A stretch of 44,986 bases of DNA from Clostridiaceae bacterium (GTDB lineage: Bacteria; Bacillota; Clostridia; DSM-8532). The notes below the pieces were generated by a model. It did no database searches. It worked only from the letters and a program-made list of their open reading frames with translations, and was not told where the DNA came from. The stretch lies in assembly GCA_012522505.1 (NCBI GenBank), contig JAAYKJ010000219.1, positions 1 through 44,986 on the forward strand, in the 5' to 3' direction. Below, one piece after another: positions 2,664-17,885 of the stretch (position 1 is its first letter; each line of letters opens with the position of its first letter). The position numbers and the translations under genes were made by a program.

Positions 2664-3638
2664 ATGATTACTCTTTCCAATATCAATAAGACTTTCAGAG
2701 TTGCCAGGCGTCAGGCTGGATTTGGCCGTGCCGTGAAAGCTTTGTTTTCGCGTGAATATGAGCTTATTCATGCATTAAACGATGTCAGTTTTTCAATCAA
2801 AGATGGCGAAATGGTTGGATATATCGGGCCAAATGGCGCAGGAAAAAGCACTACAATAAAAATAATGTGCGGAATCTTAACACCGGATAGCGGCGAATGT
2901 AACATTGATGGACGCGTGCCATGGCGTGAGCGTATAGCCCATGTCTGCGAAATCGGTGTTGTATTCGGCCAGCGAAGCCAACTTTGGTGGGATGTTCCCA
3001 TTATCGACAGCTTTGAATTGATACGTGATATTTATAAAACGGACGAAAAGACTTATAAAAATAGTCTTGATGAATTAACCATGCTTCTTGATTTGGGCGA
3101 ACTGCTTAAAACACCGGCCCGAAGCCTGAGTCTCGGTCAGCGTATGCGCTGCGAAATTGCCGCGTCACTCCTGCATAAACCAAAAATTTTATTTCTCGAT
3201 GAACCGACTATCGGTCTTGATGCGGTATCAAAAATCGCCGTACGCCAGTTTATTAAAAAATTGAACACTGAGCACGGCACAACTGTTATTCTGACAACCC
3301 ACGATATGCAGGACATTGAAGCGCTGACCGAACGGATATTACTGATAGGTAAAGGCAGGATATTGCTTGACGGCAGCCTTGATGAACTTAAAAAGCATTC
3401 GTCCAGTCGAAAAACCCTTGTTGTTGAGTATACCGGAGTTATGCCAACAACTTCAGAGGGTATGACTCTAAAAGAGATGAAAGACGGGCGGCTTATAATC
3501 ACCCTTGATCCGGAGATATTACCGGTATCAGACGCGATAACACATCTTGCCGCGGAAGCGGATCTGACTGATGTATCAGTGTCCGGTATAACGGCAGAGG
3601 AGATGGTAGCCGAGTTATACAGGGAGTATCATATATGA
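2664..3638 (+). CDS. ABC-2 exporter ATP-binding protein (COG4586-like)
   Basis: A 324-residue cytosolic ATPase that should power the two membrane subunits encoded next. Walker A GPNGAGKS is at about residues 55-62, the signature LSLGQ at 155-159, Walker B ILFLDE at 175-180 and the switch histidine in TTHD at about 213. An insertion before Walker A (roughly residues 14-35) and the segment G-V-V-F-G-Q-R-S-Q-L-W-W-D are typical of the COG4586 group. The substrate is unknown in this family. A purine-rich site (GCAGGGGGA) precedes the ATG. The stop overlaps the next start by 4 nt (ATGA), indicating translational coupling. Confidence 0.9.
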   Translation: MITLSNINKTFRVARRQAGFGRAVKALFSREYELIHALNDVSFSIKDGEMVGYIGPNGAGKSTTIKIMCGILTPDSGECNIDGRVPWRERIAHVCEIGVVFGQRSQLWWDVPIIDSFELIRDIYKTDEKTYKNSLDELTMLLDLGELLKTPARSLSLGQRMRCEIAASLLHKPKILFLDEPTIGLDAVSKIAVRQFIKKLNTEHGTTVILTTHDMQDIEALTERILLIGKGRILLDGSLDELKKHSSSRKTLVVEYTGVMPTTSEGMTLKEMKDGRLIITLDPEILPVSDAITHLAAEADLTDVSVSGITAEEMVAELYREYHI

Positions 3639-4432
3639 AAAAATATATTGCGCTGTTTCGAATACGATTTATTAACGGTTTGCAGTATCGTGCAGCGGCG
3701 TTGGCGGGATTGACCACGCAGTTCGCCTGGGGGTTTATGGAGATTTTGTCTTTTTCGGCGTTTTACCGTGCGAATCCTGCTGCTTTTCCAATGGAGTTTT
3801 CACATCTTGTGTCTTATGTATGGATACAGCAGGCTTTTTTGGCTCTTTTTATGCCCTGGGGTGTCGGAGGAAACGCTGTAGAAACAATCGTCAGCGGAAA
3901 TATATCCTATGATTTGGCGCGGCCTATGGACATATACAACCGCTGGTTTTTTGAAACAATTGCAGACAGAGTATCAAGGGCAACGCTGAGGTGCGCTCCC
4001 ATACTGATTTTGGCGTCTATTTTACCTCTCCCGTTCAGAATGAAATTACCTTCAGATTTGTTTCAGTTTTCAATGTTTTTAATATCTGTGCCGATTGCGA
4101 TGTTTGCGGTTACAGCATATTGCCTTATAGATTATATGTCCGCGTTTTATACCATGAGCCGCTATAATGCGATTTTTGTAATTGTTGCGGACTTTTTTGC
4201 AGGAGGCTATATACCTATTCCATTTTTCCCGGAGCCTGTGAGGAAAATTGCCGAACTATTGCCGTTTGCGGCTATGCAGAATATGCCACTGAGGATTTAC
4301 AGCGGTGATATAGCCGGCATGGACGCAGTTTATGGAATCGGTTTACAGTTGTTTTGGGTTACGGTTATGATAGCCTTTGGGAAACTGCTTATGAGACGCT
4401 CGCTAAAGCGGATTGTAACACAGGGAGGCTGA
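3635..4432 (+). CDS. ABC-2 family permease (COG4587-like)
   Basis: A 265-residue polytopic membrane protein with about six hydrophobic segments and a short cytosolic N-terminus, of the ABC-2 permease type always found beside a COG4586 ATPase and a second permease. It overlaps the ATPase gene by 4 nt and is followed after 3 nt by the second permease, so the three form one operon. Probably a subunit of a heteromeric exporter; no substrate can be inferred from the sequence. Confidence 0.85.
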   Translation: MKKYIALFRIRFINGLQYRAAALAGLTTQFAWGFMEILSFSAFYRANPAAFPMEFSHLVSYVWIQQAFLALFMPWGVGGNAVETIVSGNISYDLARPMDIYNRWFFETIADRVSRATLRCAPILILASILPLPFRMKLPSDLFQFSMFLISVPIAMFAVTAYCLIDYMSAFYTMSRYNAIFVIVADFFAGGYIPIPFFPEPVRKIAELLPFAAMQNMPLRIYSGDIAGMDAVYGIGLQLFWVTVMIAFGKLLMRRSLKRIVTQGG

Positions 4433-4435
4433 TGT

Positions 4436-5212
4436 ATGAAATTATATTTTAAGTATTTTTCCATACACCTTAAAAGCCAGATGCAGTATAAAGCTACGTT
4501 TTTCCTGAATTTTTTCGGCAGGATCGTAATGTCATTCGCTACCGTTGCCAGTGTATTATTTATGTTTACGCGTTTTAACCAAGTTGATGGATTTACGGTC
4601 AGCCAAATATTATTATGTACGTCAGTCGTGTCAATGGCTTATTCTTTAGCTGAGGTATTCGCCCGGGGATTTGATATATTTCCGCGTCTGCTTGGCAATG
4701 GTGAATTCGACCGCATCCTTGTAAGACCCCGAGGAATAATCTTTCAGGTTCTGGCATCACACATTGAGTTTTTACGTCTCGGGATATTTATTCAAGCCGT
4801 GGCTGTTTTGTTGTATGCTATACCTAACAGCGGTGTCATATGGACCGGGGACAAAATCGTAACTCTGCTCTTAATGATTTTCTGCGGTGCAGCAGTATTT
4901 TTTGGTTTATATATCATATACACCTCCTTTGCGTTTTTTACAACTGAAGGATTGGAATTTATGAATATACTGACACACGGGGGACGTGAGTTCGGACGCT
5001 ATCCATATGTAATCTATGGCGATGGGATACTTAAGTTTCTGACTTATATCATTCCACTGGCTTTAATTCAGTATTACCCGCTTCTCTATTTACTTGACAG
5101 GGCACAAAGTAAATTATATATGTTTATGCCAATAATCAGCTTATTGTTTTTAATACCAAGTTACTCCTTCTTCCTTATAGGGTTGCGACGATACAAATCG
5201 ACAGGATCATAA
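4436..5212 (+). CDS. ABC-2 family permease (COG3694-like)
   Basis: A 258-residue membrane protein with about six transmembrane segments, the second membrane subunit of the exporter. Family features include the R-I-L-V-R-P-R-G segment after the second hydrophobic span and the Y-P-Y-V-I-Y-G stretch before the last pair of spans. GGGAGG precedes the ATG. No gene follows for about 225 nt, where the next operon has its own candidate promoter, so the exporter appears to be a separate transcription unit. Confidence 0.85.
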   Translation: MKLYFKYFSIHLKSQMQYKATFFLNFFGRIVMSFATVASVLFMFTRFNQVDGFTVSQILLCTSVVSMAYSLAEVFARGFDIFPRLLGNGEFDRILVRPRGIIFQVLASHIEFLRLGIFIQAVAVLLYAIPNSGVIWTGDKIVTLLLMIFCGAAVFFGLYIIYTSFAFFTTEGLEFMNILTHGGREFGRYPYVIYGDGILKFLTYIIPLALIQYYPLLYLLDRAQSKLYMFMPIISLLFLIPSYSFFLIGLRRYKSTGS

Positions 5213-5390
5213 TCACCATATTATGTTACAACCGAGTGCTTTCAGCAACCCCAAAAACGCTTTACAGAAAATGAAACCGAAATTTACTAAATATCTTATA
5301 GTTTATCCATGCATCAGGTCACTTTTCATCAGCACGATATAATCGATTTCATAGAAGATAGACGGTCTTATTTATGTTGTTAATTTTCAT

Positions 5391-5418
5391 TTTCAATTTT
5401 GGAAAATACTGCTATAAT
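5391..5418 (+). promoter_or_regulatory. Promoter of the STM4015-4011-type operon
   Basis: An extended -10 TGCTATAAT (TATAAT at 5413-5418) with a weak -35 TTTCAA (5391-5396) 16 nt upstream. It sits only about 20 nt before the ATG at 5438, which excludes the in-frame TTG at 5399 as the start. Confidence 0.55.
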
Positions 5419-5437
5419 ATTTCCGGAGGTGTATCAA

Positions 5438-6289
5438 ATGGATAAAACAAAAAAGTATTATTACGACTACGAGGACTATGAGGATGGCGGAAAAGACGCC
5501 GGCAGTCTCGCTGAAGAAATCCTGAATGACCCGGAGCTGAGCTCCATTAAGAACATCATCGTCGGATGCTGGGGAGAATCCTATAATAACAATTGTCAGC
5601 CGATTTTGGACAAGTTTGCCGAAAACAGTGAAAAGCTCTCTCACATTGAAGGCTTGTTTATCGGAGACATGGACTCGGAAGAGTGTGAGGTTTCCTGGAT
5701 AGAGCAGGGTAATTACAGTGAACTGCTAAAGTCGTTACGAAACCTGAAGCACCTGACGATTAAAGGAAGCACTAACCTTAGTTTAGGGGAACTGAACCAT
5801 TCTGAATTGGAATCCCTCGAAATTATCTGTGGCGGGCTTCCGAAATCAGTGATTCAGGAAATAGCCAACTCAAACCTGCCAAAGCTGAAGAAGCTCAATT
5901 TATACATTGGGGTAGAAGAATATGGGTTTGACGGAAGTATTGATGACATTAAAAAACTGACTCAAAACAGGAATGTCAAAAACCTGGAGTATCTTGGGTT
6001 ATGTGACAGCGATATTCAGGATGAGATTGTGGAATCTGTTTTTAGCGACTTTGATTTCCCGAACCTGAAGATTTTGGACTTTTCCTACGGAACCCTTTCC
6101 GACAAAGGCGCACAGCTAATATTAGACAATGCAGACAAGCTGAATAAACTTGAATTGTTAGATTTACACTATCATTTCATCACAGACGATTTTGTGGATA
6201 AGCTAAAAAAACTTCCTATCCGAATCAATCTTGATGAACAGCAGGAAAATGACGATGAGTATGGGAATTATCCCATGTTGACGGAGTAG
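5438..6289 (+). CDS. Leucine-rich-repeat protein, STM4015 family
   Basis: A 283-residue protein. GGAGGT at 5425-5430 lies 7 nt before ATG 5438. It starts with a Tyr/Asp/Glu-rich stretch (KKYYYDYEDYEDGG), then a globular part, then at least four leucine-rich repeats of the L-x-x-L-x-x-L type (for example NLKHLTI, ELESLEII, KLKKLNLY, NLEYLGL, NLKILDF, KLELLDL), and ends in an acidic tail (ENDDEYGNYPMLTE). This architecture and the gene order match the STM4015 family, whose function is unknown. No signal peptide is visible, so it is probably cytosolic. As the only non-enzymatic member of the operon it could be a scaffold or the substrate of the downstream enzymes; that is inference. Confidence 0.75.
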   Translation: MDKTKKYYYDYEDYEDGGKDAGSLAEEILNDPELSSIKNIIVGCWGESYNNNCQPILDKFAENSEKLSHIEGLFIGDMDSEECEVSWIEQGNYSELLKSLRNLKHLTIKGSTNLSLGELNHSELESLEIICGGLPKSVIQEIANSNLPKLKKLNLYIGVEEYGFDGSIDDIKKLTQNRNVKNLEYLGLCDSDIQDEIVESVFSDFDFPNLKILDFSYGTLSDKGAQLILDNADKLNKLELLDLHYHFITDDFVDKLKKLPIRINLDEQQENDDEYGNYPMLTE

Positions 6290-6300
6290 TGACTGAGTGA

Positions 6301-7290
6301 ATGAACATTATCCTGATAGGACAATCAGAATCCAAAAGAACGGAATATTTCAAGAGAGCAGCAGACTCACTGAGGGCTGACATTCACTTTTATGAAATTG
6401 GAGCATTTCCTTTTGATGCACCACAGGGGGGCATTGTAAAAATCGATCCTCCCAGGTATAAGGATTCTGATTTGTCCAACCTCAATATGCTGATAGGTGA
6501 GTATATCAGCTATTTGAAGACAGTTGCACAGAATATGAAGTTGGTTTTCTTAAACCACCCGAATAGTATCATCGATACATTGGATAAACGAAGGTGTAAA
6601 GACATACTGGTTCACAATGGAATAGCGGTAACACCTCCTGTTGACGAAGAATTTCGGGATATCTATTCTCTGAGACAGTATGTGAAGGAAAACAGAACCT
6701 GCAGCTTATTTATTAAACCAAGGTATGGATCTGGCGCAGCTGGAATTCTGGCTTACCGATATAACCCGGCGACGGACTCCGAAGTGATTCATACCTCTGT
6801 TCACGAAGCGAACGGCAGGTTTGTGAACACCAAAAGAATCAGTAAAATAAACCGGCGTGAGAGAATAGAATTACTTGTTAATTTTATTCTCTCCCAGCCG
6901 CATTTGATTGAAAAATGGGTGCCAAAACCCAAATACCAGAACCTTTGTTATGATCTGAGGGTGGTTTATCAGTTTGGAAAGATAGACTTTATCGTGGCAA
7001 GGTGTTCCGACTCACCGATTACGAACCTGCATTTAGCCAATAATGCACTGGATGTGGATTTATTAAAACTGCCTCAGCCAGTACTCTGTAAAATTGAGTC
7101 TTTATGCAGCAAAGCTGTGAGTTGTTTTAAAGGGCTCAGTTATGCAGGAATTGATATCCTTTTAAGCGGGAAAAGCCTGGAGCCTATGATAATTGAGATA
7201 AATGCTCAGGGGGATCTGATCTACCATGACATTTTCAGAGAAAACAAAATCTACAAAAACCAAATAATAAGGATGTCGAACAATGGATAA
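6301..7290 (+). CDS. ATP-grasp-like protein, STM4014 family
   Basis: A 329-residue cytosolic protein with an N-terminal Rossmann-like part (MNIILIGQSESKRTEYFKRA) and an ATP-grasp-like C-terminal two thirds: L-F-I-K-P-R-Y-G-S-G-A-A-G carries the nucleotide-binding lysine and glycine-rich loop, and P-M-I-I-E-I-N-A-Q-G-D resembles the Mg-binding E-x-N end of the fold. ATP-grasp enzymes activate a carboxylate as acyl-phosphate and join it to an amine or thiol. The partner here is unknown. It lies 11 nt after the LRR gene and overlaps the next gene by 8 nt. Assignment to the STM4014 family rests on this domain plus gene order. Confidence 0.75.
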   Translation: MNIILIGQSESKRTEYFKRAADSLRADIHFYEIGAFPFDAPQGGIVKIDPPRYKDSDLSNLNMLIGEYISYLKTVAQNMKLVFLNHPNSIIDTLDKRRCKDILVHNGIAVTPPVDEEFRDIYSLRQYVKENRTCSLFIKPRYGSGAAGILAYRYNPATDSEVIHTSVHEANGRFVNTKRISKINRRERIELLVNFILSQPHLIEKWVPKPKYQNLCYDLRVVYQFGKIDFIVARCSDSPITNLHLANNALDVDLLKLPQPVLCKIESLCSKAVSCFKGLSYAGIDILLSGKSLEPMIIEINAQGDLIYHDIFRENKIYKNQIIRMSNNG

Positions 7291-8152
7291 ACGGATCAGG
7301 GGAATTTCAACAGAGATAGAAGGGCATGTTGTAAATGCCCGATATTCAGTAAACATGAATGAAATCGTGGGGACCCATAATATTTTGTTTGTGTGTTTGG
7401 ATACGTTAAGGTATGATGTGGCTTTTGAAGAGCAAGAAAAGAACAATACTCCCAATCTGAACAAATATGGCAAATGGGAAAAACGTCATGCACCCGGTAA
7501 CTTCACCTTTCCGTCCCACATGGCAATGTTTGCAGGTTTTTTGCCTACTCCTGAACAGCCAACACCAAAGCTGGAAGTAGAAAGACTTTTTATTCCCAAA
7601 GACAATGTCGCTAACAGGCCAACCCCAAAGGAAGCTTATTTATTTGAAGGCGCCAACTTTGTAGAAGGGCTTGAGAGAACAGGGTACGAAACAATCTGCG
7701 TGGGCGGTGTGAACTTTTTCAATAAAAGAACCGAATTGGGCCGAGTGCTTCCAGGGCTGTTTAAGCGCAGTTACTGGCATCCATCCTTTAGCTGTCACAT
7801 CAAAAACAGCTTTGAAAATCAGCTAAGCTTTATCGAAAGAAAGCTCGGGAGATACGACAAGGATAAAAGGGTTTTTTTGTACCTAAACATCGACAGCATC
7901 CATTACCCGAATTATTTCTATGTTGACGGAGCAAAGGAAGACTCTATACATACCCATGCCGCAGCATTGCGTTATGTAGATTCCCATATTGAAAGGCTGT
8001 TTCACTTGTTCAGAGAAAAGGGAAAAACATTTGTCATTATATGCTCTGATCATGGAAGCTGTTACGGAGAAGATGGCTATCATTTTCACCGACTGTCACA
8101 TGAAATGGTTTATACTGTTCCATATAAGCACTTTGTACTGCAGGAAGGCTAA
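7283..8152 (+). CDS. Sulfatase/alkaline-phosphatase-fold hydrolase, STM4013/SEN3800 family
   Basis: A 289-residue protein of the alkaline phosphatase superfamily. The metal-binding C-L-D-T-L-R-Y-D (Asp40) lies near the N-terminus, the probable nucleophile Thr75 is in F-T-F-P-S-H, and C-terminal metal ligands are in S-D-H-G (Asp256, His257) and Y-H-F-H-R-L-S-H. It lacks the C-x-P-x-R formylglycine motif of true sulfatases, so a phospho-ester substrate or phospho-transfer role is more likely. It overlaps the ATP-grasp gene by 8 nt. AAGGA stands 9 nt before the ATG. An in-frame Met25 would be an alternative start. The 3-prime end lies in an unusual short direct repeat (see findings). Confidence 0.75.
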   Translation: MDKRIRGISTEIEGHVVNARYSVNMNEIVGTHNILFVCLDTLRYDVAFEEQEKNNTPNLNKYGKWEKRHAPGNFTFPSHMAMFAGFLPTPEQPTPKLEVERLFIPKDNVANRPTPKEAYLFEGANFVEGLERTGYETICVGGVNFFNKRTELGRVLPGLFKRSYWHPSFSCHIKNSFENQLSFIERKLGRYDKDKRVFLYLNIDSIHYPNYFYVDGAKEDSIHTHAAALRYVDSHIERLFHLFREKGKTFVIICSDHGSCYGEDGYHFHRLSHEMVYTVPYKHFVLQEG

Positions 8153-8294
8153 AGCTTGTTTGTACCAAAGGGCAGATAAATTACTTTCGAAATTCAATGG
8201 GCGCTGGCGCGAATTGTGTGCTGAAACGCCACTTGCGGAGGAGTCTTAAGGCGTTTGAATCAAGACTATGTATTCAGGAAGGTGAAAGCTTGTT
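8141..8294 (+). repeat. 22-bp imperfect direct repeat flanking the hydrolase/radical SAM junction
   Basis: CAGGAAGG-CT-AAAGCTTGTTTG at 8141-8162 recurs as CAGGAAGG-TG-AAAGCTTGTTTG at 8273-adjacent positions 8275-8294 (allowing the two central mismatches). The copies are 134 bp apart. The first contains the stop codon of the STM4013-type gene, the second the ribosome-binding site and TTG start of the STM4012-type gene. The sequence between them has no recognisable gene. Confidence 0.6.
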
Positions 8295-9570
8295 TGATCC
8301 ATATAAACAATATATGTACAGCTACCCACACAAAACTGCTTATCAGCATATTCAGCATTTAAAGCTGGAGCAATATCAACAGGAGTTGACCGAAAGCTCA
8401 ACAACGCTGTATTTTCATATTCCCTTCTGCGAAAGCAAATGTGGTTATTGTAATCTGTTCTCTATCCCCTGCAAAAACTCTGAAAAAATAAACGGGTATA
8501 TTGAGGCTGTCAAACGGCATGCAAAACACTACAGGGATGTATTGAGCTTTGAAGGGGTCCGATTCGAATCCCTTATTTTTGGGGGCGGTACACCGCTTAT
8601 TCTTTCCATTGATCAACTGGGGGAACTGTTTGATATCGCTGAGAACAGTCTTGGTATAGACCTGGAAAGGGTGAATACCTGTATAGAAACCTCACCTAAT
8701 CAGACTTCACGGGAAAAGCTGGTATTCCTAAGATCTAAAAAAGTAAACAGGGTAAGTATTGGGGTCCAATCCTTTGTTCAAGCAGAGTTGGACAAGCTGA
8801 AAAGGCTTCACAGTGCGCACAGAGCTAAAATAGCTCTTGAAGACATTCAAAATGTGGGCTTTGACAATGTGAACATCGACTTAATCTATGGTGTACCTTC
8901 ACAAACCATGGAAAGCTTGAGATATTCATTGGAAACAGCCCTTTCATATCAACCGGATGAGATTTTTGCCTATCCCCTCTATCAAAGACCCAATACAGGG
9001 ATATACAAGCAGTTCGACACAGACAAGGATCTGCAATACAGAATGTATTTTATGATCTGTGATGTTTTAGCTGGCAAGGGATATTTTCAAACATCCATGA
9101 GAAGGTTTGTTAAGGATAGACCTTCAAAACAGAGCAGCTGCGGGTTCGAAAATATGATATCGCTCGGTTGCGGCGGCAGGAGTTATATCGGCAACCTGCA
9201 TTTTTGTGAGAGGTATACCTCCAGACAAGTCGGGTGCAGGGATATCATCAATGCGTATATCAACCGGGAGACCTTTTTCGATGGAATCAGTTTCTATAAG
9301 CTGGATATGGATGAAATGGAACGAAGGTTCACTATAAAAAATCTCTTTTACTATAGTGGGGTAACTTTTTCCGAGTATAAGGCTGTCTTCGGTACAGATC
9401 TGTATGGAGACTTTCCTGTCCTACAGAAATTTCTTCAGGAGAATTGGGCGATGGAAAATGGCGGAGCGATAAAGCTGACACCCCTTGGACTTTCTCTGTC
9501 TGATTATATAGGGACAATGCTCATCTCTGACGCTGTGTCCCGGAAGATGGAGTGTTACCGAGATGCTTGA
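8290..9570 (+). CDS. Radical SAM protein, STM4012 family (HemN-like)
   Basis: A 426-residue radical SAM enzyme. Y-F-H-I-P-F-C-E-S-K-C-G-Y-C gives the C-x3-C-x2-C cluster ligands (Cys47, Cys51, Cys54 from the chosen start), followed by F-G-G-G-T-P and the HemN-like I-E-T-S-P, S-I-G-V-Q-S-F and D-L-I-Y-G-V-P segments. Despite the similarity to oxygen-independent coproporphyrinogen oxidase, the context indicates the STM4012 group. The TTG at 8290 is preferred: GGAAGGTGA lies just upstream and L-F-D-P-Y-K-Q-Y-M-Y-S-Y-P-H-K resembles the family N-terminus; the ATG at 8197 would add 31 unrelated residues. It overlaps the next gene by 8 nt. Chemistry and substrate are unknown. Confidence 0.8.
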   Translation: MFDPYKQYMYSYPHKTAYQHIQHLKLEQYQQELTESSTTLYFHIPFCESKCGYCNLFSIPCKNSEKINGYIEAVKRHAKHYRDVLSFEGVRFESLIFGGGTPLILSIDQLGELFDIAENSLGIDLERVNTCIETSPNQTSREKLVFLRSKKVNRVSIGVQSFVQAELDKLKRLHSAHRAKIALEDIQNVGFDNVNIDLIYGVPSQTMESLRYSLETALSYQPDEIFAYPLYQRPNTGIYKQFDTDKDLQYRMYFMICDVLAGKGYFQTSMRRFVKDRPSKQSSCGFENMISLGCGGRSYIGNLHFCERYTSRQVGCRDIINAYINRETFFDGISFYKLDMDEMERRFTIKNLFYYSGVTFSEYKAVFGTDLYGDFPVLQKFLQENWAMENGGAIKLTPLGLSLSDYIGTMLISDAVSRKMECYRDA

Positions 9571-11068
9571 GGGTGTTAAAAACATCTGCTTCAGAGGCTC
9601 CCTGTCGTCGTGTAATTATTCATGCTCCTATTGCAGCTTTGCAAAAAGAGGCCCTCGCAAAACGGAGCTAATGAAAGACAAGGCATGCCTGAGCAGGGTC
9701 TGCGATTTTATTGATACTACCAGCTTCACAAACCAAATTTCAATTTTTCTAACGCCCCATGGGGAGGGCCTTATCCATCCCCATTATGTTGAAGCTATCG
9801 CAAGACTCGCTTTAAGCCCAAAGTGCAGGTACATATCCTGTCAGACCAATTTAAGCTTCGATTCAGATGCATTCATAAAAAGCTTAATTGCAGCTAAAGT
9901 CGACTTATCAAAGGTCAAATTATGGGCGACCTGTCATCCCGGGATGATTTCGATTGATGAATTTGTGAGCAAGGTCAATCAACTTAAAGCAAGTATCGAT
10001 TTATGCGTTGGGATCGTTGCAATCCCTGAAGAATTGCACAATGTCTTTGAGCTTCGCAAACGGTTGCCAAAAGATATATACATGTGGATTAACGCAATGA
10101 AAAGAGCGAAGACGAAGTATACTGACTCGCAGATTAAGACATTGATACAGGCCGATCCGCTTTTCCCCAATGAGCTGCAAAAATTCAGGGTTCAACCCGG
10201 TTGCTGTCATGCAGGAACCGATAGTGTCTATATCAATGCAAATGGTGATGTGTTCCCCTGTCATATCAATAAAAACAGGTTATTCAATATCTACAGAAAT
10301 TCAAGCCCGGTGTTGCCGTTTCAGTGTGATAAGCGGTTTTGTGACTGTTATCTGGCCTATTCCCACAGAACCGACTCAAACCTTGAAAGGATCTTTGGCG
10401 ATTATACGCCTGTAAGGATTCCCAATAAAAAAGAGATAGAAGCGCTGTTTTTGGATGTCGATGGTACAATCACTGATGAATCCGGTGCAGTCAGCGAAAA
10501 AGCCATAGAGCAGATAAGGTTTCTAAAAGATAAGATACGGATTTATCTTGTTACTGCTCTTCCATTGCATATCGCAATGAAAAAATGCAATCGCATAAAA
10601 AGCTTCATCAGCGGTGGTGTATTTGCAAATGGCGGGCAGATCGTTGACTTCGGTTTACATTATCGGCAGATAGTAAGTCTGGAGAAAGAAGTTCTGGAAG
10701 CAGTGTCCGATATCCCGCAAATCAAGGTCTATAAAGAAAATGATTCGGTGTATAAGCTATCGGCTTTCAGCAAGCATATTCCACCCTATATCAAATCAGA
10801 TTCCAGATTGAAGCTGACCTATGAAAGGAACCTTGTCAGCATAAACTCCAATAGTGCAAGCAAGCTTGAGGGCATACGCAAAATATGTATGAAGAATGGA
10901 TTTTGTGAAGATAAGGTTTTTGTGATGGGAAACAGTATGAACGATTTGGAAATGATCTGCCATTTTGAAAACTCTGCTGCTACAATCGATTCGAAATGCA
11001 GAGCTTTGAAGGAGCAAGCGGGATACATATTAAACAGTGAGCACCTTGCAATATTTGTTAAGACATAA
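9563..11068 (+). CDS. STM4011-family radical SAM protein fused to a HAD phosphatase domain
   Basis: A 501-residue two-domain protein. Residues 1 to about 285 form a radical SAM domain with Cys17, Cys21 and Cys24 (C-N-Y-S-C-S-Y-C) and later cysteines (Q-P-G-C-C-H; V-F-P-C-H; Q-C-D-K-R-F-C-D-C) that could bind a second cluster. Residues from about 290 to 501 form a HAD-superfamily (Cof-like, IIB) phosphatase with D-V-D-G-T (Asp298 and Asp300), a lysine near 434 and G-N-S-M-N-D (456-461). The junction is continuous without frameshift. As far as I recall STM4011 proteins are near 290 residues, so the fusion is unusual. It closes the operon; no T-run terminator is visible after it. Confidence 0.75.
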   Translation: MLEGVKNICFRGSLSSCNYSCSYCSFAKRGPRKTELMKDKACLSRVCDFIDTTSFTNQISIFLTPHGEGLIHPHYVEAIARLALSPKCRYISCQTNLSFDSDAFIKSLIAAKVDLSKVKLWATCHPGMISIDEFVSKVNQLKASIDLCVGIVAIPEELHNVFELRKRLPKDIYMWINAMKRAKTKYTDSQIKTLIQADPLFPNELQKFRVQPGCCHAGTDSVYINANGDVFPCHINKNRLFNIYRNSSPVLPFQCDKRFCDCYLAYSHRTDSNLERIFGDYTPVRIPNKKEIEALFLDVDGTITDESGAVSEKAIEQIRFLKDKIRIYLVTALPLHIAMKKCNRIKSFISGGVFANGGQIVDFGLHYRQIVSLEKEVLEAVSDIPQIKVYKENDSVYKLSAFSKHIPPYIKSDSRLKLTYERNLVSINSNSASKLEGIRKICMKNGFCEDKVFVMGNSMNDLEMICHFENSAATIDSKCRALKEQAGYILNSEHLAIFVKT

Positions 11069-11196: not shown

Positions 11197-11886
11197 CTAC
11201 ATAAACTTCCGCAGTATTGCTTCTGCTATTATAAAGTCCAATTCATCATCGATATCAATTGATCTTTCCTTTGGCATTATAAAGGCATATGCTTTCTCTC
11301 TGTAAATATCGCTGTTTGCAAGAAAATAATCAGTTCTTACGATATACAATGAACCATTAATGGTGTAGTATTTTGAAAGGCTTTGCCTGGGTAGCCGGAC
11401 GATGTTTTCAGGAAGGAACCCTTTGAGGGACAGGTCATCGGGGAGAGTGTTACACCACAGTGGTGAGTGTGTTGCTTCGCAAACACCAACAATTGCGTTT
11501 GCTCCCCTTTCAACAAACATGTCATAGGCTTTTTGCAGGTCTTGACATTTGCGTAAAGGAGATGTGGGTTGTAAAAGTGCGAAGGTATCAAAGGAACTGC
11601 CGAAATCTCTGAGTTTTGTCAGTACTTCTGTGACCACATCCCATGAAGAAGCAAGATCTGTTGAAGCCTCTGCACTCCTTGGAAAAGGAACACTGGCGCC
11701 ATATGTAATTGCAATGCGGGCATAATCCATCGAATCAGTGGATACAAGAATCTCGTCAAACAGCCCCGATTCTTTAGCAGCGATGATAGAATAAGCCATC
11801 AGCGGAAGATTATTAAGAAGACGGATATTTTTATGACGGAGCCCTTTAGAGCCGCTTCGGGCTGGGATTATTGCAATATTTGACAT
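11197..11886 (-). CDS. neuA: CMP-nonulosonate cytidylyltransferase (NeuA/LegF type)
   Basis: A 229-residue nucleotidyltransferase that activates a nonulosonic acid with CTP to the CMP-sugar used by sialyltransferase-like enzymes. The N-terminus I-I-P-A-R-S-G-S-K-G-L-R-H-K-N-I is the CTP-binding signature; L-L-Q-P-T-S-P-L-R and the C-terminal S-I-D-I-D-D-E-L-D (metal-binding aspartates) are also family hallmarks. Because LegB, LegC and a PtmE-like enzyme are in the same locus, the sugar is more likely legionaminate than N-acetylneuraminate. GGAGG stands 9 nt before the ATG. It is the last gene of the minus-strand locus, convergent with the radical SAM operon. Confidence 0.9.
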   Translation of the reverse strand: MSNIAIIPARSGSKGLRHKNIRLLNNLPLMAYSIIAAKESGLFDEILVSTDSMDYARIAITYGASVPFPRSAEASTDLASSWDVVTEVLTKLRDFGSSFDTFALLQPTSPLRKCQDLQKAYDMFVERGANAIVGVCEATHSPLWCNTLPDDLSLKGFLPENIVRLPRQSLSKYYTINGSLYIVRTDYFLANSDIYREKAYAFIMPKERSIDIDDELDFIIAEAILRKFM

Positions 11887-11911
11887 TTTTGTTTTCCTCC
11901 AATCACATCAC

Positions 11912-12445
11912 TTATTCCATAGCTTTAAGAGGGTATATATACTCACGCATTTCTACCATTTGTTGCAGATTAGCTATCCATACCTCTTTTACCTTATCTG
12001 TCATTTCAAAGCCAGCTCGCGAAAAGGCGGTCTGACTTGCGATATTGTCGTGGCGAATATATGCATAAATTTTATTAAACCTCAGATTTTTGCAGAGTAT
12101 AGCTGCTTCTTTAATGGCTGTTACAGCAATTCCGCGACCTCTTTTTGTACTTAATATACCTATTCCGATTTCACAGCATTTTTCGTGCTCTTTTGTCGGA
12201 TATAAGGATAAATATCCTGCTCTTTCCCAGAATCCGTTAACCATCGTGCTGATGATATACAATCTGTACCAGTATGCCTTATCCCGGGAGTAAATACTTT
12301 GGGTAAACCAAATCTGGAGTTTGTCTTTATCAGGGGCATTGGTGTAGCCTGACCAGTAAATGCTGTCCGGCTCACATTTTAAAGTGTAGTAAAAGTCAAA
12401 ATCGGTTGTTTTTGCAGGTGAAAGCAATATATTTTCAGTACCCAT
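11912..12445 (-). CDS. GNAT N-acetyltransferase, candidate LegH
   Basis: A 177-residue GNAT-fold acetyltransferase. The acetyl-CoA loop is recognisable in T-K-R-G-R-G-I-A and the C-terminal helix in I-R-H-D-N-I-A-S-Q-T-A-F-S-R-A-G-F. Located between the cytidylyltransferase and NeuC genes, it could N-acetylate the 4-amino sugar made by LegC (LegH role); a second GNAT in this locus is a competing candidate. The ATG at 12445 is chosen: GAGGA is correctly spaced, whereas the GTG at 12457 lies inside that site. The start is 8 nt after the NeuC stop. Confidence 0.75.
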   Translation of the reverse strand: MGTENILLSPAKTTDFDFYYTLKCEPDSIYWSGYTNAPDKDKLQIWFTQSIYSRDKAYWYRLYIISTMVNGFWERAGYLSLYPTKEHEKCCEIGIGILSTKRGRGIAVTAIKEAAILCKNLRFNKIYAYIRHDNIASQTAFSRAGFEMTDKVKEVWIANLQQMVEMREYIYPLKAME

Positions 12446-12453
12446 GGATTTCC

Positions 12454-13611
12454 TCACAAATCGTAGAATTTTTTACGCATGCTTGAATAATCTTTTATTG
12501 CCCTTTTAATTTCTTCCAGGATTATTTTTGATGTGTTGTTCGATTCATATGGGTTTATTGTTTTTTTAAGTCTGTTCCTGTATTCACGCGTACTGACTTT
12601 CTCCAGTGCTTCAAGGATTTCTTTTTTATCAGCCTTGCAATGGATGACTGAATCGGCACAGATTCTTCCTTTTTGACGAGTGCCAATATTAATAGTGCCC
12701 ACCCCGAGGCTTGGAATTTCAACAATTCCACTTGAAGAGTTTCCAACCACGGCTGTGGAATAAGCTGCAAGGCTTAGAAATCTTTTATGGCCCAAAGAGG
12801 GAAAAACATGCCTGTTAAGTCTATCTTCCAGAACAAAGTCATCAATGAGCCTGTTTAGCTCGGAACCACCGGTGTCAGCATTTGAGCGGGTGAAAATAAT
12901 TAAGAACTCATGTTTTTCCTCCAGGGATTTCAAAAGCTCTACAAGCTGTTCGGTTGAATTACTTTCAAGGGTTGTGGGGTGGAAGGTCACTAAAAGCAGT
13001 TTTTCACGAAGCGTAATTCCAAGCTCTGATTCCAACTGCTCTTTTGACAATCTCTCCAGGCGGTTGATGTTCTCAATCCCCAGATCACCTACGCAAAAAA
13101 CCCTTTCGGGTGACTCTCCCAGTTGAATGACTCTGCGTCTGTAATCCTGCGTAGATGTGAAGTGAAGATAGGACAGTTTTGTTATTGCGTGCCTGAAATA
13201 CTCATCATAAGCTCCTTCGGAAATTTCGCCCCCGGAGATGTGCGCAACGGGGATTTTCAACGCAACACATGCTCCAGCTATGGGTAGTAGCTCATAACGA
13301 TCCCCCAGTATAACAACCATTTGTGGTTTGATTTCATACAATATGCTTCCAACCCTGAGAAGGGCATTTGACATGGTTTCGAGGATCTGCAATGTATTAC
13401 TTCCCTGAAAAATTCTCACCTTATGAATGATGCCAAATCCGTCGCTATCAATATCTCTGGCTGTAAGTCCAAATTCCTCCTCAAGGTGAGCCCCTGTTAC
13501 TATTAACCGAAGCTCACACGCATCATCTTCATGTATACGTTTTATAATGGGATACAACAACCCATATTCGGATCTTGATGCGGTTATCACACAAATCTTA
13601 TAGGGTCTCAT
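12454..13611 (-). CDS. neuC: UDP-N-acetylglucosamine 2-epimerase, hydrolysing (NeuC/LegG)
   Basis: A 385-residue enzyme of the hydrolysing epimerase family with a GT-B fold. It releases the nucleotide and inverts C2 to give the free ManNAc-like sugar, the substrate of the following synthase step. Hallmarks are V-I-T-A-S-R-S-E-Y-G-L-L near the N-terminus, V-I-L-G-D-R-Y-E, H-I-S-G-G-E-I-S-E-G-A-Y-D-E and G-N-S-S-S-G-I-V-E-I-P. In a legionaminate locus the substrate would be the 2,4-diacetamido sugar nucleotide (LegG). AAGGAGG precedes the ATG. It is 19 nt after the NeuB gene and clearly in the same operon. Confidence 0.93.
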   Translation of the reverse strand: MRPYKICVITASRSEYGLLYPIIKRIHEDDACELRLIVTGAHLEEEFGLTARDIDSDGFGIIHKVRIFQGSNTLQILETMSNALLRVGSILYEIKPQMVVILGDRYELLPIAGACVALKIPVAHISGGEISEGAYDEYFRHAITKLSYLHFTSTQDYRRRVIQLGESPERVFCVGDLGIENINRLERLSKEQLESELGITLREKLLLVTFHPTTLESNSTEQLVELLKSLEEKHEFLIIFTRSNADTGGSELNRLIDDFVLEDRLNRHVFPSLGHKRFLSLAAYSTAVVGNSSSGIVEIPSLGVGTINIGTRQKGRICADSVIHCKADKKEILEALEKVSTREYRNRLKKTINPYESNNTSKIILEEIKRAIKDYSSMRKKFYDL

Positions 13612-13630
13612 TTATGCCTCCTTAAAGCTC

Positions 13631-14629
13631 CTATAACTCTATCAGCTCATCCTCAGCAAAATTCCTTTTTGCCTTTTGTCCTAAAACCTGGTGCCAGAGC
13701 ATTGGAGAAATACCTGTACCTGGTCTTTTTACAGCTAAATTTTCATGGTTAAAGGGCTCTCCCTTCGAAATTCTTCTTGCTGCCACCAAGCTTTTCCTGG
13801 CAACGAGTCTATTTTCTCTTTCAGAATCGGTAACCTTTTTGATTCCGTTTCCCATTGCCATTTCTATATTTCGTATGGCATGGATCATCGATCTAAGGGT
13901 ATCAGGTTCCAGACTTGCTCTGTGATCAGGGCCATCCAATGAACGGCTTAGGGTAAAATGCTTTTCTATCACAACTGCTCCAAGTGCGATGGCTGCCAGG
14001 GACGCTTCAATCCCATCGGTGTGGTCAGATAGACCAACAGGTAATTTGAAATGCTCCTGAAGTGTTTTCATGGCGAGAAGATTTACATCCTGCATTGGAG
14101 TAGGATATTGGCTGTTACAGTGCAGCAGGATAATATCTTTTTTTTCTCCCCTTTGCAATATCTGTAATGCATTTTCAATCTCAACGATTTCACTCATGCC
14201 TGTAGAAAGGATTAAGGGACATGATAATTCCGATATAGTTTCCAGTAAAGGAAGGTTGGTAATCTCACCCGATGGAATTTTGATATGGTCAACACCGATT
14301 GAACACAAAAACTTAGCGCTTTCACAGTCAAATGGTGAGGACATAAAGCCTATTCCACAGGTTTTGCAGTAATCCTTCAGATGAATAAAATAGCTATAAG
14401 GAAATTCCAGCTTTTCTTCCATTTCCAGCATGGTTTCATTATCTTGAGCTGTTTTTCGTTGGTAAAGTGCTTTGGGAGCAAAGCGTGAAATAATATTCCG
14501 GCTTTTCCAGGTCTGAAATTTAATATAATCTGCTCCGACTTTTGCAGCAGCTTCTACCATCCTTAAGGCTGTTTCCATACTACCGTTATGATTAACTCCT
14601 GCTTCGGCAATAATTAAGGTTTTTGCCAT
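13631..14629 (-). CDS. neuB: N-acetylneuraminate/legionaminate synthase (NeuB/LegI)
   Basis: A 332-residue synthase that condenses phosphoenolpyruvate with a ManNAc-like hexosamine to give a nine-carbon nonulosonic acid. An (alpha/beta)8 barrel occupies about residues 1-265 (E-A-G-V-N-H-N-G; I-K-F-Q-T-W-K; I-K-I-P-S-G-E; S-T-G-M-S; G-L-S-D-H-T; E-K-H-F-T-L) and a C-terminal SAF/antifreeze-like domain closes the active site (R-K-S-L-V-A-A-R-R-I-S-K-G-E; K-R-P-G-T-G-I-S-P). GGGAGA precedes the ATG. It lies between the FemAB-like gene and NeuC with short gaps. Confidence 0.93.
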   Translation of the reverse strand: MAKTLIIAEAGVNHNGSMETALRMVEAAAKVGADYIKFQTWKSRNIISRFAPKALYQRKTAQDNETMLEMEEKLEFPYSYFIHLKDYCKTCGIGFMSSPFDCESAKFLCSIGVDHIKIPSGEITNLPLLETISELSCPLILSTGMSEIVEIENALQILQRGEKKDIILLHCNSQYPTPMQDVNLLAMKTLQEHFKLPVGLSDHTDGIEASLAAIALGAVVIEKHFTLSRSLDGPDHRASLEPDTLRSMIHAIRNIEMAMGNGIKKVTDSERENRLVARKSLVAARRISKGEPFNHENLAVKRPGTGISPMLWHQVLGQKAKRNFAEDELIEL

Positions 14630-14646
14630 GACAATTCTCCCTTCAG

Positions 14647-15708
14647 TTATGTCCGATATTGAATTAGACGATGGTTCGAAACAATAAAATCAGATTCATT
14701 GGATAAACTGATTTGCAACAGTTTTTGATAGGTATCATTGCAAAATATGGTCCTGCCAATATAGAAATCCTTGAGCCCGGCTCTGTGAAAGGATCTTTTA
14801 AAGGCAAAAAGACTATCCTGTGGTTCTATGCCTCCGCCAAGGTGGAAGGTAGTATATCCATTATCTGCACCCTGGCATGCAGCGGTATATAATAGAAGAT
14901 TATTGGGAGCAAGGTGTTTGAAATCCGGATTGGAGGCTGATAGATGGTAATGCATCCTGCCATTGCAATAAAGAATGATGGCTGAACTGATAATCTCGTT
15001 TTTATAGCACGCACTGAAGAGGGAAAAGTGATCATTGAGGTTTTGGAATATATACTCAAAATATTTATTGTTAAAGAAATAAAAATCTGAGGCATGCTTT
15101 CGTTCCATTGTGCTTTTGTAAAGAGAATAGAAAGCTGTTTGAAACTGTTTATTGGTATCTGTTTTTATTTCAATGCCATTTTTTATAGCTTTGCGTACCA
15201 TATTCCGATTCTTTGGATCCATATTTTTAAATATGGTTTGAGAATCAACGGTATCTATGTAAACTGTTTTCTTTAAGCTGACAATATCCGAGCAGCCTGA
15301 AAAAAAACGGTGATTATCCAAAAGAGGATGGAAACGGATGAACTGGCATGCAATTTTATTTGAGCTGCAATAATCGGATATTTGCTGCATAAATTCATTC
15401 ATTTCAGGTATAGAAAAGTTTTCAACAAGAGGACCGCCATACCCGTATGGTGTTGACCAGTCAAAACAGGTATCGGGTTCAAGAATACCATTGAATTTCT
15501 CAAACTGGGAAATGTCGCTTTGCTGTATGGTATAGCACAGGCGCATTATATTTCCGCAAAAGTATATAAGGAAAAAAGAATCATTGCATGCTTTCTGGCA
15601 TGCGGATACATATTCATTTAAAAAATATACGTCATGGGAGTGAAAAGATTTCACAATTTGGTTCCACTTTTCTTTTTCGCTTAAGGGTATGATTTTTAGG
15701 CTGTTCAA
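14647..15708 (-). CDS. FemAB-like GNAT-fold acyltransferase
   Basis: A 353-residue protein with the twin GNAT arrangement of FemABX and peptidoglycan-bridge enzymes. P-Y-G-Y-G-G-P in the first half, N-M-V-R-K-A-I-K-N-G-I in the middle and the C-terminal A-P-N-N-L-L-L-Y-T-A and F-H-L-G-G-G segments are typical of the group. Relatives in polysaccharide loci transfer aminoacyl or other acyl groups; the donor is unknown here. A TTG start at 15708 overlaps the upstream stop as TTGA, with AAAGGAGG 9 nt before it; the TTG at 15717 abuts that site and is less likely. Coupled to the aminotransferase-like gene. Confidence 0.7.
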   Translation of the reverse strand: MNSLKIIPLSEKEKWNQIVKSFHSHDVYFLNEYVSACQKACNDSFFLIYFCGNIMRLCYTIQQSDISQFEKFNGILEPDTCFDWSTPYGYGGPLVENFSIPEMNEFMQQISDYCSSNKIACQFIRFHPLLDNHRFFSGCSDIVSLKKTVYIDTVDSQTIFKNMDPKNRNMVRKAIKNGIEIKTDTNKQFQTAFYSLYKSTMERKHASDFYFFNNKYFEYIFQNLNDHFSLFSACYKNEIISSAIILYCNGRMHYHLSASNPDFKHLAPNNLLLYTAACQGADNGYTTFHLGGGIEPQDSLFAFKRSFHRAGLKDFYIGRTIFCNDTYQKLLQISLSNESDFIVSNHRLIQYRT

Positions 15709-16781
15709 AGAAAGCAACCTCCTTTATAGTCGTTAATTATATTGCAAATATATTCCATATGGCGCTGGTCGTAGCGTTGGTCAACGGGAATGGAAAGGAT
15801 GGATTGAGAAATATTCTTGACTGTGTCAAAAGCAAGAACCCTTTTGTCTGCTATCGGCCAGTGTACAGGACAGTAAATTCCGTTTTGTTCCAGGTGTTTT
15901 CGGAATATATCTCTGTTTTTTACATATATGGGATAGAAAAAAAGGCAATCATCCCCTATATCATAGAAAACCGGTTTAACAAAGGATGAGTGAATGTTTT
16001 TGTGTAGAAACCCGGAGTTTTCTTTTCTTTTATAAGCTGCTTTTGCAATATCAAAATATATTATCTGTTGTTCTGAAAATTCAGATATGGAATGAAGCTC
16101 CTGGGCGTGATCCAATATTTTTTCGGCATGGGAAAACAATTCTCTGTATAAATCCCTGTAATCTCCCAGACCTCGCAGATGAAGGTCCTTTAAGAGTAAT
16201 CCGGCGGTCCTGACATTGGTAAAGGCTTTGTTTACATTTCTTTGCGTCCACTGCGTAAGTGGATTTATTGAGTAAGAGACTCCGCCGTCAGGTAGGCCAA
16301 ACCACTTGCGAAGGCTTGCAACACAGTAATCGCCAATGGTTTTTACTTTTGCTGGCAGGCTGTGGGTTGTATCCTCAATAATGGTTAGATTATGAGCCTT
16401 GCAGAAATCTTGAATCCTTTCAAGCACTGCTTTATTCTGAAGTCGCCCAAAGTAGTTAATGAAAAAGAAAACATCGGTTGTTGGAGTATATTTGTGCACA
16501 ATACTCTCAATATCCAATGACAGGTCGGGGGTGATATCATAAAAATCAATAGAGCAGTTTTCTCGCTCAAAGGCATCAATTACAGATTGGCAGATATAGG
16601 AGGGCAATAAAGCTCTCGTACCATTAATCTGCAGCAAAACTGAGCGAATGGCGCTTCGGCCGCTACAATAATAGACTTTGTTGTAGTCCTTCAGTAAATG
16701 CTGTAAATTTACCTTTGGAACTGTATTTGGATATTGATTCAGAGTATATTCACTTCCAATTTCGTAAGGGGTATTTGTCAA
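15705..16781 (-). CDS. DegT/DnrJ-like aminotransferase-fold protein
   Basis: A 358-residue PLP-enzyme-fold protein distantly related to sugar aminotransferases of the DegT/DnrJ/EryC1/StrS group. S-G-R-S-A-I-R-S-V-L, L-L-P-S-Y-I-C, I-E-D-T-T-H-S-L and S-L-R-K-W-F-G-L-P-D-G-G correspond to the cofactor-binding segments, and the lysine of R-K-W occupies the PLP-lysine position, so activity is possible. The start TTG 16781 is chosen because GGGTGGTGA precedes it and it begins 1 nt after the neighbour's stop; an upstream ATG in the neighbour's coding region is less likely. Tightly paired with the FemAB-like gene, suggesting joint decoration of an amino sugar. Confidence 0.7.
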   Translation of the reverse strand: MTNTPYEIGSEYTLNQYPNTVPKVNLQHLLKDYNKVYYCSGRSAIRSVLLQINGTRALLPSYICQSVIDAFERENCSIDFYDITPDLSLDIESIVHKYTPTTDVFFFINYFGRLQNKAVLERIQDFCKAHNLTIIEDTTHSLPAKVKTIGDYCVASLRKWFGLPDGGVSYSINPLTQWTQRNVNKAFTNVRTAGLLLKDLHLRGLGDYRDLYRELFSHAEKILDHAQELHSISEFSEQQIIYFDIAKAAYKRKENSGFLHKNIHSSFVKPVFYDIGDDCLFFYPIYVKNRDIFRKHLEQNGIYCPVHWPIADKRVLAFDTVKNISQSILSIPVDQRYDQRHMEYICNIINDYKGGCFL

Positions 16782-16782
16782 G

Positions 16783-17880
16783 CTATTCACCACCCAGAGA
16801 AGGTTTTTCTGCATTATTTGAGCAGGAAAGAATATCATAGTCAGAGTTCAGTCTCTTTTTCATTTGCTCCAATCCATCCAATTGCCCCATATCCATCCAG
16901 GCATATTCACTGATAGGATAAACGCCTACCTTTTCCTGTTTGTTTCTAAGGTTTTCGATAATATCCGGAAAATCAATTTTGCACGTATCCTCCATGGCCT
17001 CAATAATTTTGGGTTCAACAAGATAGCATCCGGTGTTTGCCAAAAAAGACACTCCTGGCTTTTCCCGTATGCTCCTGATTTCACCATTGTTTCCCATTTC
17101 AATTACACCATATGGGATTTTATAATTTTTCATAGAACAGATCATTGTGATGCTATTTTTTTGCTCAAGGTGGTAATCGTAAACTTCACGAAAATCCGCA
17201 TCAATTAAAATATCGCAATTGGTCAGAATAAAGGGGGTGTGAATCTGCCCTTTCAGCAAAGATAAACCTCCACCTGTTCCCAGAAACTCTTTTTCTTCAA
17301 TAAAAGTAAGCCTATAATCTTTTTTTAGCTCGTTGAAATAAGCCTTTATCATGTTTTTCATGTGGTTTATAATCATATAAAAGCAAGTACAACCTTCTTT
17401 TTGGAACTTCTCAATAATTATCTGTGCAATGGGGATTTCGCCAACTGGAATTAATGGTTTAGGAAGGATTTTGGTATAGGGGTAAAGCCTTGTGCCCAGT
17501 CCACCGGCCATAATGACTACAGGTATATTCAGTGTGTTTTTTAATTTTGTATTCTCTTCATTCCACATAGCTATAGAGACAATGGCCATTCTTTCATCTA
17601 CAATAGGTATTGCATTGATGCCATATTGCCTCATGTATTCATTCGCTTTGTGTTTTTCTTCTATGTACAGAAATTTTGGATTGTAATTTGCAACATTTTT
17701 AACAAGGGTATCCAGATTCTGTGTTTTTAGAATCCATCTTCGGATATCACCGTCTGAAACTGCTGCTGACAACCTGCCCTTCTTCTCAATGAAGAGTACT
17801 TTGCTGCCCGTTCTGTTCATTTGTTCCATTGCTTCCAGTATTGATTGCTCTTCGCTGATTTTAATTACCTTTATGCCCAT
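16783..17880 (-). CDS. CBS-domain nucleotidyltransferase, PtmE/LegX-like (glucosamine-1-phosphate guanylyltransferase type)
   Basis: A 365-residue protein with two CBS domains (about residues 1-110) followed by a GlmU/RfbA-type nucleotidyltransferase (about 118-350) whose signature A-G-G-L-G-T-R-L-Y-P-Y-T-K-I-L-P-K-P begins at about residue 125. This CBS-plus-nucleotidyltransferase layout is that of PtmE, which in Campylobacter makes GDP-glucosamine for the legionaminate pathway. It therefore likely feeds LegB, although guanylyl specificity is inference. The CBS pair may sense a nucleotide. The ATG at 17880 follows AGGTGA; the GTG at 17889 lies inside the MurJ gene end. Confidence 0.8.
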   Translation of the reverse strand: MGIKVIKISEEQSILEAMEQMNRTGSKVLFIEKKGRLSAAVSDGDIRRWILKTQNLDTLVKNVANYNPKFLYIEEKHKANEYMRQYGINAIPIVDERMAIVSIAMWNEENTKLKNTLNIPVVIMAGGLGTRLYPYTKILPKPLIPVGEIPIAQIIIEKFQKEGCTCFYMIINHMKNMIKAYFNELKKDYRLTFIEEKEFLGTGGGLSLLKGQIHTPFILTNCDILIDADFREVYDYHLEQKNSITMICSMKNYKIPYGVIEMGNNGEIRSIREKPGVSFLANTGCYLVEPKIIEAMEDTCKIDFPDIIENLRNKQEKVGVYPISEYAWMDMGQLDGLEQMKKRLNSDYDILSCSNNAEKPSLGGE

Positions 17881-17885
17881 TAAAT

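Follow-up and report, generated by a model that had tools for sequence, protein, structure and literature searches.

In LysW systems, the C-terminal glutamate (Glu) of the EDWGE motif receives an amine, which the ligase attaches to its gamma-carboxyl group, and the E54A mutation in the ArgW of haloarchaea causes arginine auxotrophy (PMC10433800, PMC9303977). Here we analysed a five-gene operon of the STM4015, STM4014, STM4013, STM4012 and STM4011 families, which lies on the plus strand at positions 5438–11068 of a 44,986-nucleotide stretch of contig JAAYKJ010000219.1 from a Clostridiaceae bacterium (the whole stretch is hereafter called the window). Our literature search on these families found no functional study. 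The new observation is that STM4015 proteins, which contain leucine-rich repeats (LRR), end in an invariant C-terminal Glu wherever they are intact alongside an STM4014 gene, and this single residue makes an anonymous operon a concrete biochemical question. In the reading that we favour as probable, though with some reserve, the operon is a carrier-protein-type system in which STM4014, a predicted ATP-grasp ligase, would load the C-terminal Glu of STM4015 and the other enzymes would remodel the tethered group.

The C-terminal glutamate of STM4015

The STM4015 gene of the window (5438–6289, starting with ATG at 5438) encodes a protein of 283 amino acids (aa), the proposed carrier or substrate, which matches PDB 2ra8 both in sequence (1.7e-69) and in fold (template-modelling score 0.91). 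Its conserved C-terminal tail, YGNYPMLTE (6260–6286), finishes with Glu283 (codon 6284–6286), and the stop codon follows directly. The last residue was Glu in 97 of 97 distinct STM4015 proteins of a first set (11 clusters at 50% identity) and in 212 of 213 in an enlarged set linked to STM4014, where the sole exception is a defective copy interrupted by an internal stop. The background frequency of a terminal Glu among the other open reading frames (ORFs) of the same loci is 5.2%, and the last residue is not fixed in STM4014, STM4013, STM4012 or STM4011. Three elements precede the Glu: an acidic linker that varies in length and sequence, then an aromatic residue, and lastly a step of one hydrophobic residue followed by Thr, Ser, Gly or Ala.

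The terminal Glu is also found in tandem STM4015 copies, up to six of which stand next to one operon, in paralogs located on other contigs of operon-bearing genomes, in a 776-aa protein whose C-terminal part is the LRR, and in the WGR-LRR proteins of Bacteroides, of which 2ra8 is a solved example; it is there regardless of what stands in front of the tail. A genome can hold up to eight STM4015 copies for a single STM4014; the tandem bodies of actinomycetes and Deinococcus are just 48–70% identical and retain their tails, and a belt of conserved polar residues following the LRR strands is common to all copies. The possibility that the Glu is an overlap artefact of ATGA coupling was ruled out, because it also occurs at non-overlapping genes, as in the window, and in unlinked copies.

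A Bacteroides finegoldii plasmid carries an operon copy with a WGR-LRR STM4015 (locus L153, 8716–12733) that is broken by a deletion removing most of STM4013 and STM4012. Salmonella-like STM4015 was also seen in the phage-labelled records AFYI01000005, OR851113, OR845944 and MW715619, which are probably host DNA.

The tail could alternatively be the site of a chemistry like that of ribosomally synthesised and post-translationally modified peptides (RiPPs) or of pyrroloquinoline quinone (PQQ), in which a radical S-adenosylmethionine (SAM) enzyme would link the aromatic residue (−6 to −9) to the terminal Glu, or decarboxylate the terminus, with the ligase acting elsewhere. In 212 of 213 tails the terminal Glu is accompanied by an aromatic residue between −10 and −5, and STM4011 has SPASM-like cysteines and a weak likeness to PapB and SkfB, as such a reading would have it. 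However, the aromatic residue shifts between −6 and −9 and the Thr or Ser at −2 is replaceable by Gly or Ala, so that a fixed crosslink or graspetide esters fit poorly, and the LysX-like ligase would be left unexplained; we judge this chemistry unlikely. Graspetide-like crosslinks as a candidate of their own were rejected, since the STM4015 tail has no invariant donor.

The STM4014 ligase and its tie to STM4015

STM4014 (6301–7290, 329 aa) is proposed to act on the C-terminal Glu of STM4015. It retains the residues that a working ATP-grasp enzyme should have: K96, K139, E204, D285 and N301 are invariant, and position 299 is Glu or Asp. Its structure was predicted with a pLDDT (predicted local distance difference test) of 92, and when the model was compared with the PDB by Foldseek, the best matches were ArgX:LysW and LysX/ArgX-LysW-gamma-AAA (3vpb, 5k2m), followed by graspetide ligases and then RimK:RpsF. 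At the sequence level the matches were weak, both for the STM4014 profile against D-Ala-D-Ala ligases, RimK and LysX and for the MptN and RimK-like models against STM4014, and no LysX model was among the profile matches of the operon proteins. The evidence from the tail and that from the fold are independent, because the finding on the tail preceded the comparison of folds.

The RimK:RpsF fold match, together with the weak MptN and RimK-like matches, would also suit an enzyme that marks the LRR protein for regulation by extending its C-terminus with Glu residues, while the radical SAM enzymes act elsewhere. Such glutamylation, however, would leave the company of two radical SAM enzymes and a hydrolase, kept by the ligase in 66 of 80 loci, without an explanation, and we consider it improbable.

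The distribution of the two genes was followed in samples of 200 Streptomycetaceae and 375 Actinomycetes genomes, some of which are common to both. STM4015 was present in every genome bearing STM4014 (97/97 Streptomycetaceae and 52/52 Actinomycetes), and the STM4014-STM4015 pair stays together where the remaining operon genes sit elsewhere. Six genomes have STM4015 without STM4014; they also lack STM4011, and their STM4013 is at most stray or broken. (A seventh such genome, G1056, was left out, as its gene is located at the end of a contig and the genome has STM4011.) The terminal Glu was lost in two of these six STM4015 proteins, one ending in Asp and one having a truncated tail, as compared with 1 of 213 in the linked set (p = 0.002, from few genomes and with no correction for kinship).

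We infer that STM4014, having the LysX/ArgX/RimK fold, would activate a carboxylate of the STM4015 C-terminal Glu and join an amine, probably an amino acid, to it. The C-terminal Glu as the predicted ligation site is well supported by the conservation of the tail and by the modelled fold of the ligase. We further infer every step after ligation, including the order of the enzymes: STM4012, STM4011, STM4013 and, in this genome, a HAD domain would then remodel the tethered group. If this is true, LRR proteins would join small zinc-ribbons and peptides as vehicles of carrier-protein chemistry.

Several points weigh against this carrier-type reading. The GSWGR motif, which LysX and ArgX use on EDWGE, occurs in 0 of 88 STM4014 proteins, and STM4014 is just 14–15% identical to LysX/ArgX. 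The test for relaxed selection is weakened by its small, kinship-uncorrected sample, and a terminal Glu persists in four of the six STM4015 proteins from genomes that lack STM4014. There is no peptidase for release within the operon. Finally, the STM4015 tail is predicted with fair confidence (pLDDT 84–87), and its conservation could be partly structural.

Taken to its end, this last point would make the tail a structural cap or a docking peptide only, and the operon product would be unrelated to it. The moderate confidence with which the tail is modelled and the 351 of 362 residues of 2ra8 resolved in the crystal are consistent with a cap, but the linker before the tail varies in length and sequence whereas the final Glu stays constant and always closes the protein, and Glu losses are seen where STM4014 is gone. 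We therefore regard a mere cap or docking role as rather unlikely.

Under the carrier-type reading, the group loaded by STM4014 could have either of two fates. The LRR proteins may themselves be the final product, C-terminally armed with an operon-made group and serving as sensors or effectors; the first step would be the same and nothing would be released. The many STM4015 copies per STM4014, diverged in their tandem bodies and conserved in their tails, the WGR and 776-aa fusions, and an operon without a release peptidase all speak for this possibility, but the polar belt common to all copies is what would be expected of a carrier recognised by one enzyme set. Alternatively, STM4015 may be a reusable scaffold like LysW, from which a small amino-acid-derived metabolite is finally cut off. 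The closest fold relatives of STM4014 operate in this way (PMC9303977), and phosphatase-type enzymes suit the tailoring of small molecules; on the other hand, the operon has no LysK-type peptidase or hydrolase, and a 31-kDa LRR protein in many divergent copies exceeds the needs of a carrier. We hold each of the two fates to be possible and give both the same limited weight.

A more tentative extension is an armed class of LRR proteins, in which the ligase would load the terminal Glu of many LRR and WGR-LRR proteins, the two radical SAM enzymes and the phosphatases would convert the load into a lasting group that reacts or signals, and the LRR bodies would direct it to cellular or foreign targets. 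A preliminary description of the window had already suggested a modified LRR protein, giving neither site nor mechanism. This suggestion gains support, and the C-terminus of the LRR protein is now indicated as the ligase target; a modified LRR protein as the product is plausible given the several divergent LRR copies per ligase and the N-terminal fusions, with a released small molecule as the other candidate.

Partner enzymes and operon layout

STM4013 (7283–8152, 289 aa) is a hydrolase of the alkaline phosphatase superfamily (Pfam Sulfatase, 8.9e-15), in which D40, T75, H207, D256, H257 and H269 are invariant, so that the Asp, Thr, His and Asp-His positions of the superfamily are kept. Sulfatases of this superfamily generally have Cys or Ser where STM4013 has the conserved Thr, and this residue argues for phosphate rather than sulfate chemistry. 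A relative of STM4013 on a Streptomyces plasmid (L035, 4911–8360) belongs to a different cluster, where it is accompanied by a radical SAM protein, a thymidylate kinase-like protein and a NUDIX hydrolase.

STM4012 (8290–9570, with a TTG start) is a HemN-like radical SAM enzyme, whose CxxxCxxC motif (8428–8451; C47, C51 and C54) is invariant in 29 sequences. The worry that a true HemN is among the genes can be set aside, as STM4012 scores below the cut-offs of both HemW (170.9 of 205.4 bits) and HemN (129 of 325 bits). An STM4012-like protein also exists independently of the rest of the operon: on plasmids of Rhizobium tropici and Cupriavidus taiwanensis (L032, 7040–9357; L034, 6893–9228), the other four genes are missing and its sole partner is a class I SAM methyltransferase; the Rhizobium pair adjoins pseudoazurin and cbb3 oxidase genes.

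The STM4011 gene (9563–11068, 501 aa) encodes a fusion. Residues ~7–287 correspond to STM4011, a radical SAM domain with SPASM-like auxiliary cysteines (9563–10423), and residues ~291–495 to a HAD-IIB (Cof-type) phosphatase domain (10433–11047; TIGR01487/TIGR00099, Pfam Hydrolase_3 and PDB HAD phosphatases). The CxxxCxxC motif (C17, C21 and C24) is invariant in 43 sequences, as are C215, C233, C255, C260 and C262, which are typical of auxiliary clusters, and the domain is weakly similar to the SPASM-type peptide maturases PapB and SkfB. The fusion is found in 47 of 74 STM4011 genes of the named-genome loci, while Salmonella encodes the HAD separately, in a downstream gene overlapping the end of STM4011. 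The first catalytic motif of the HAD domain is degenerate in many gut relatives (DxDG followed by Thr or Val is kept in 28/52); in the window it is intact as DVDGT.

All five proteins exceed the curated NCBIfam cut-offs, given here in brackets: STM4015 scores 310 bits with NF038076 (275), STM4014 291 bits with NF038074 (175), STM4013 405 bits with NF038075 (250), STM4012 498 bits with NF006067 (380) and STM4011 281 bits with NF038073 (200). The five-gene account of the preliminary description holds for the identities and also for the starts and junctions, with gaps of 11 and 137 nucleotides and two 8-nucleotide overlaps, but it had overlooked the HAD domain fused to STM4011. STM4015 is preceded by a GGAGG ribosome-binding site (5425–5429, plus strand) and, immediately 5′ of the gene, by a promoter-like site on the same strand (TTTTCA-17-TATAAT with an extended TG, 5390–5418). 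The latter is a consensus match only, and such sites numbered 18 in the region against 14.4 expected; it is among the top-scoring ones and is placed correctly. An Rfam scan of the window found no RNA, and the PADLOC defence models gave nothing convincing with the operon proteins, just a weak 31-bit match of STM4012.

Spread, neighbours and comparison with known systems

A scan with STM4013 across 84,980 species genomes returned more than 550 relatives, and the best 80 loci, from named genomes, were read. The order 4015-4014-4013-4012-4011 is complete in 66 of the 80, contig ends interrupting most of the others, and the loci read come from Firmicutes, Bacteroidota, Actinomycetota and a cyanobacterium. 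The same gene order occurs on annotated plasmids of Salmonella, Paenibacillus, Deinococcus, Streptomyces and Methylobacterium. Since the order is kept in these loci and plasmids, the linkage is not due to chance, and the conserved linkage that had been expected earlier was borne out by this survey, which saw no loss of it. STM4015 was found in 104 of the 200 Streptomycetaceae species sampled, about half of them; beyond these, the families occur across several phyla, with Salmonella and gut Firmicutes among the bearers. In the family to which the window belongs, STM4015 was limited in our sample to the window's genus, which suggests horizontal spread. STM4015 is rare in Bacteroidales (1/247), and a near-identity search of 5426 E. 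coli genomes using the Salmonella operon did not find the operon.

The operon has two further neighbours in Deinococcus, Streptomyces and Methylobacterium, namely a DUF6745 protein and a small uncharacterised one (L030, 8216–9525; L031, 763–2385; L033, 1653–2978; L036, 8260–9557); in Deinococcus and Methylobacterium the DUF6745 protein seems rich in repeats, and its tail is of the Y-x-P type. In the window, an ABC-2 type exporter (an ATPase and two permeases; 2664–5212, plus strand) lies directly upstream of the operon, and it was ruled out as an operon partner because it is not kept beside the operon in relatives. On the minus strand, 11197–20665 holds a sialic or nonulosonic acid surface polysaccharide locus with a MurJ-type flippase, a polysialyltransferase-like protein, a NeuB-like gene and genes that we take, from sequence alone, to be NeuA- and NeuC-like.

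As to known families, the window proteins are above-cut-off members of the NCBIfam STM4011–STM4015 families in the same order. These models state no function, three of them being named "hypothetical equivalog", and the HAD domain and the tail lie outside those names. PDB 2ra8 (Bacteroides fragilis Q64V53) is an STM4015 member of known structure that shares the YPMITE ending; it differs in its longer N-terminus, and a close B. finegoldii relative has a WGR domain. We found no literature linking 2ra8 to the STM4011–STM4015 operon.

Among systems of described function, graspetides (MdnC, PsnB, CdnC) are alike in the ATP-grasp fold and the C-terminal target region, but the STM4015 tail has no conserved donor or acceptor side chains and the partner is a folded LRR. 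Pearlins (TglA, 3-thiaglutamate; the tmo cluster) are alike in that an amino acid is built on the C-terminus of a carrier, with a radical SAM step in the tmo cluster, whereas loading there is by a tRNA-dependent PEARL rather than an ATP-grasp enzyme and the carrier is a short peptide. The amino-group carrier systems (LysW with LysX/ArgX; Vzb22 in vazabitide A) share the fold of the ligase, and the tails resemble each other in an acidic stretch, an aromatic residue, a small residue and Glu (EDWGE as compared with, for example, DEWRYVALGE in STM4015). They differ in that the LysW carrier is a small zinc-ribbon with EDWGE, while STM4015 is an LRR without it and STM4014 lacks GSWGR, and in that the LysW-type partners are a kinase, a reductase and an aminotransferase, where here they are radical SAM and phosphatase-type enzymes. 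The operon is thus likened to an amino-group carrier system and yet is not a member of that family, as it has an LRR protein for a carrier and a ligase that lacks the LysX-specific motif.

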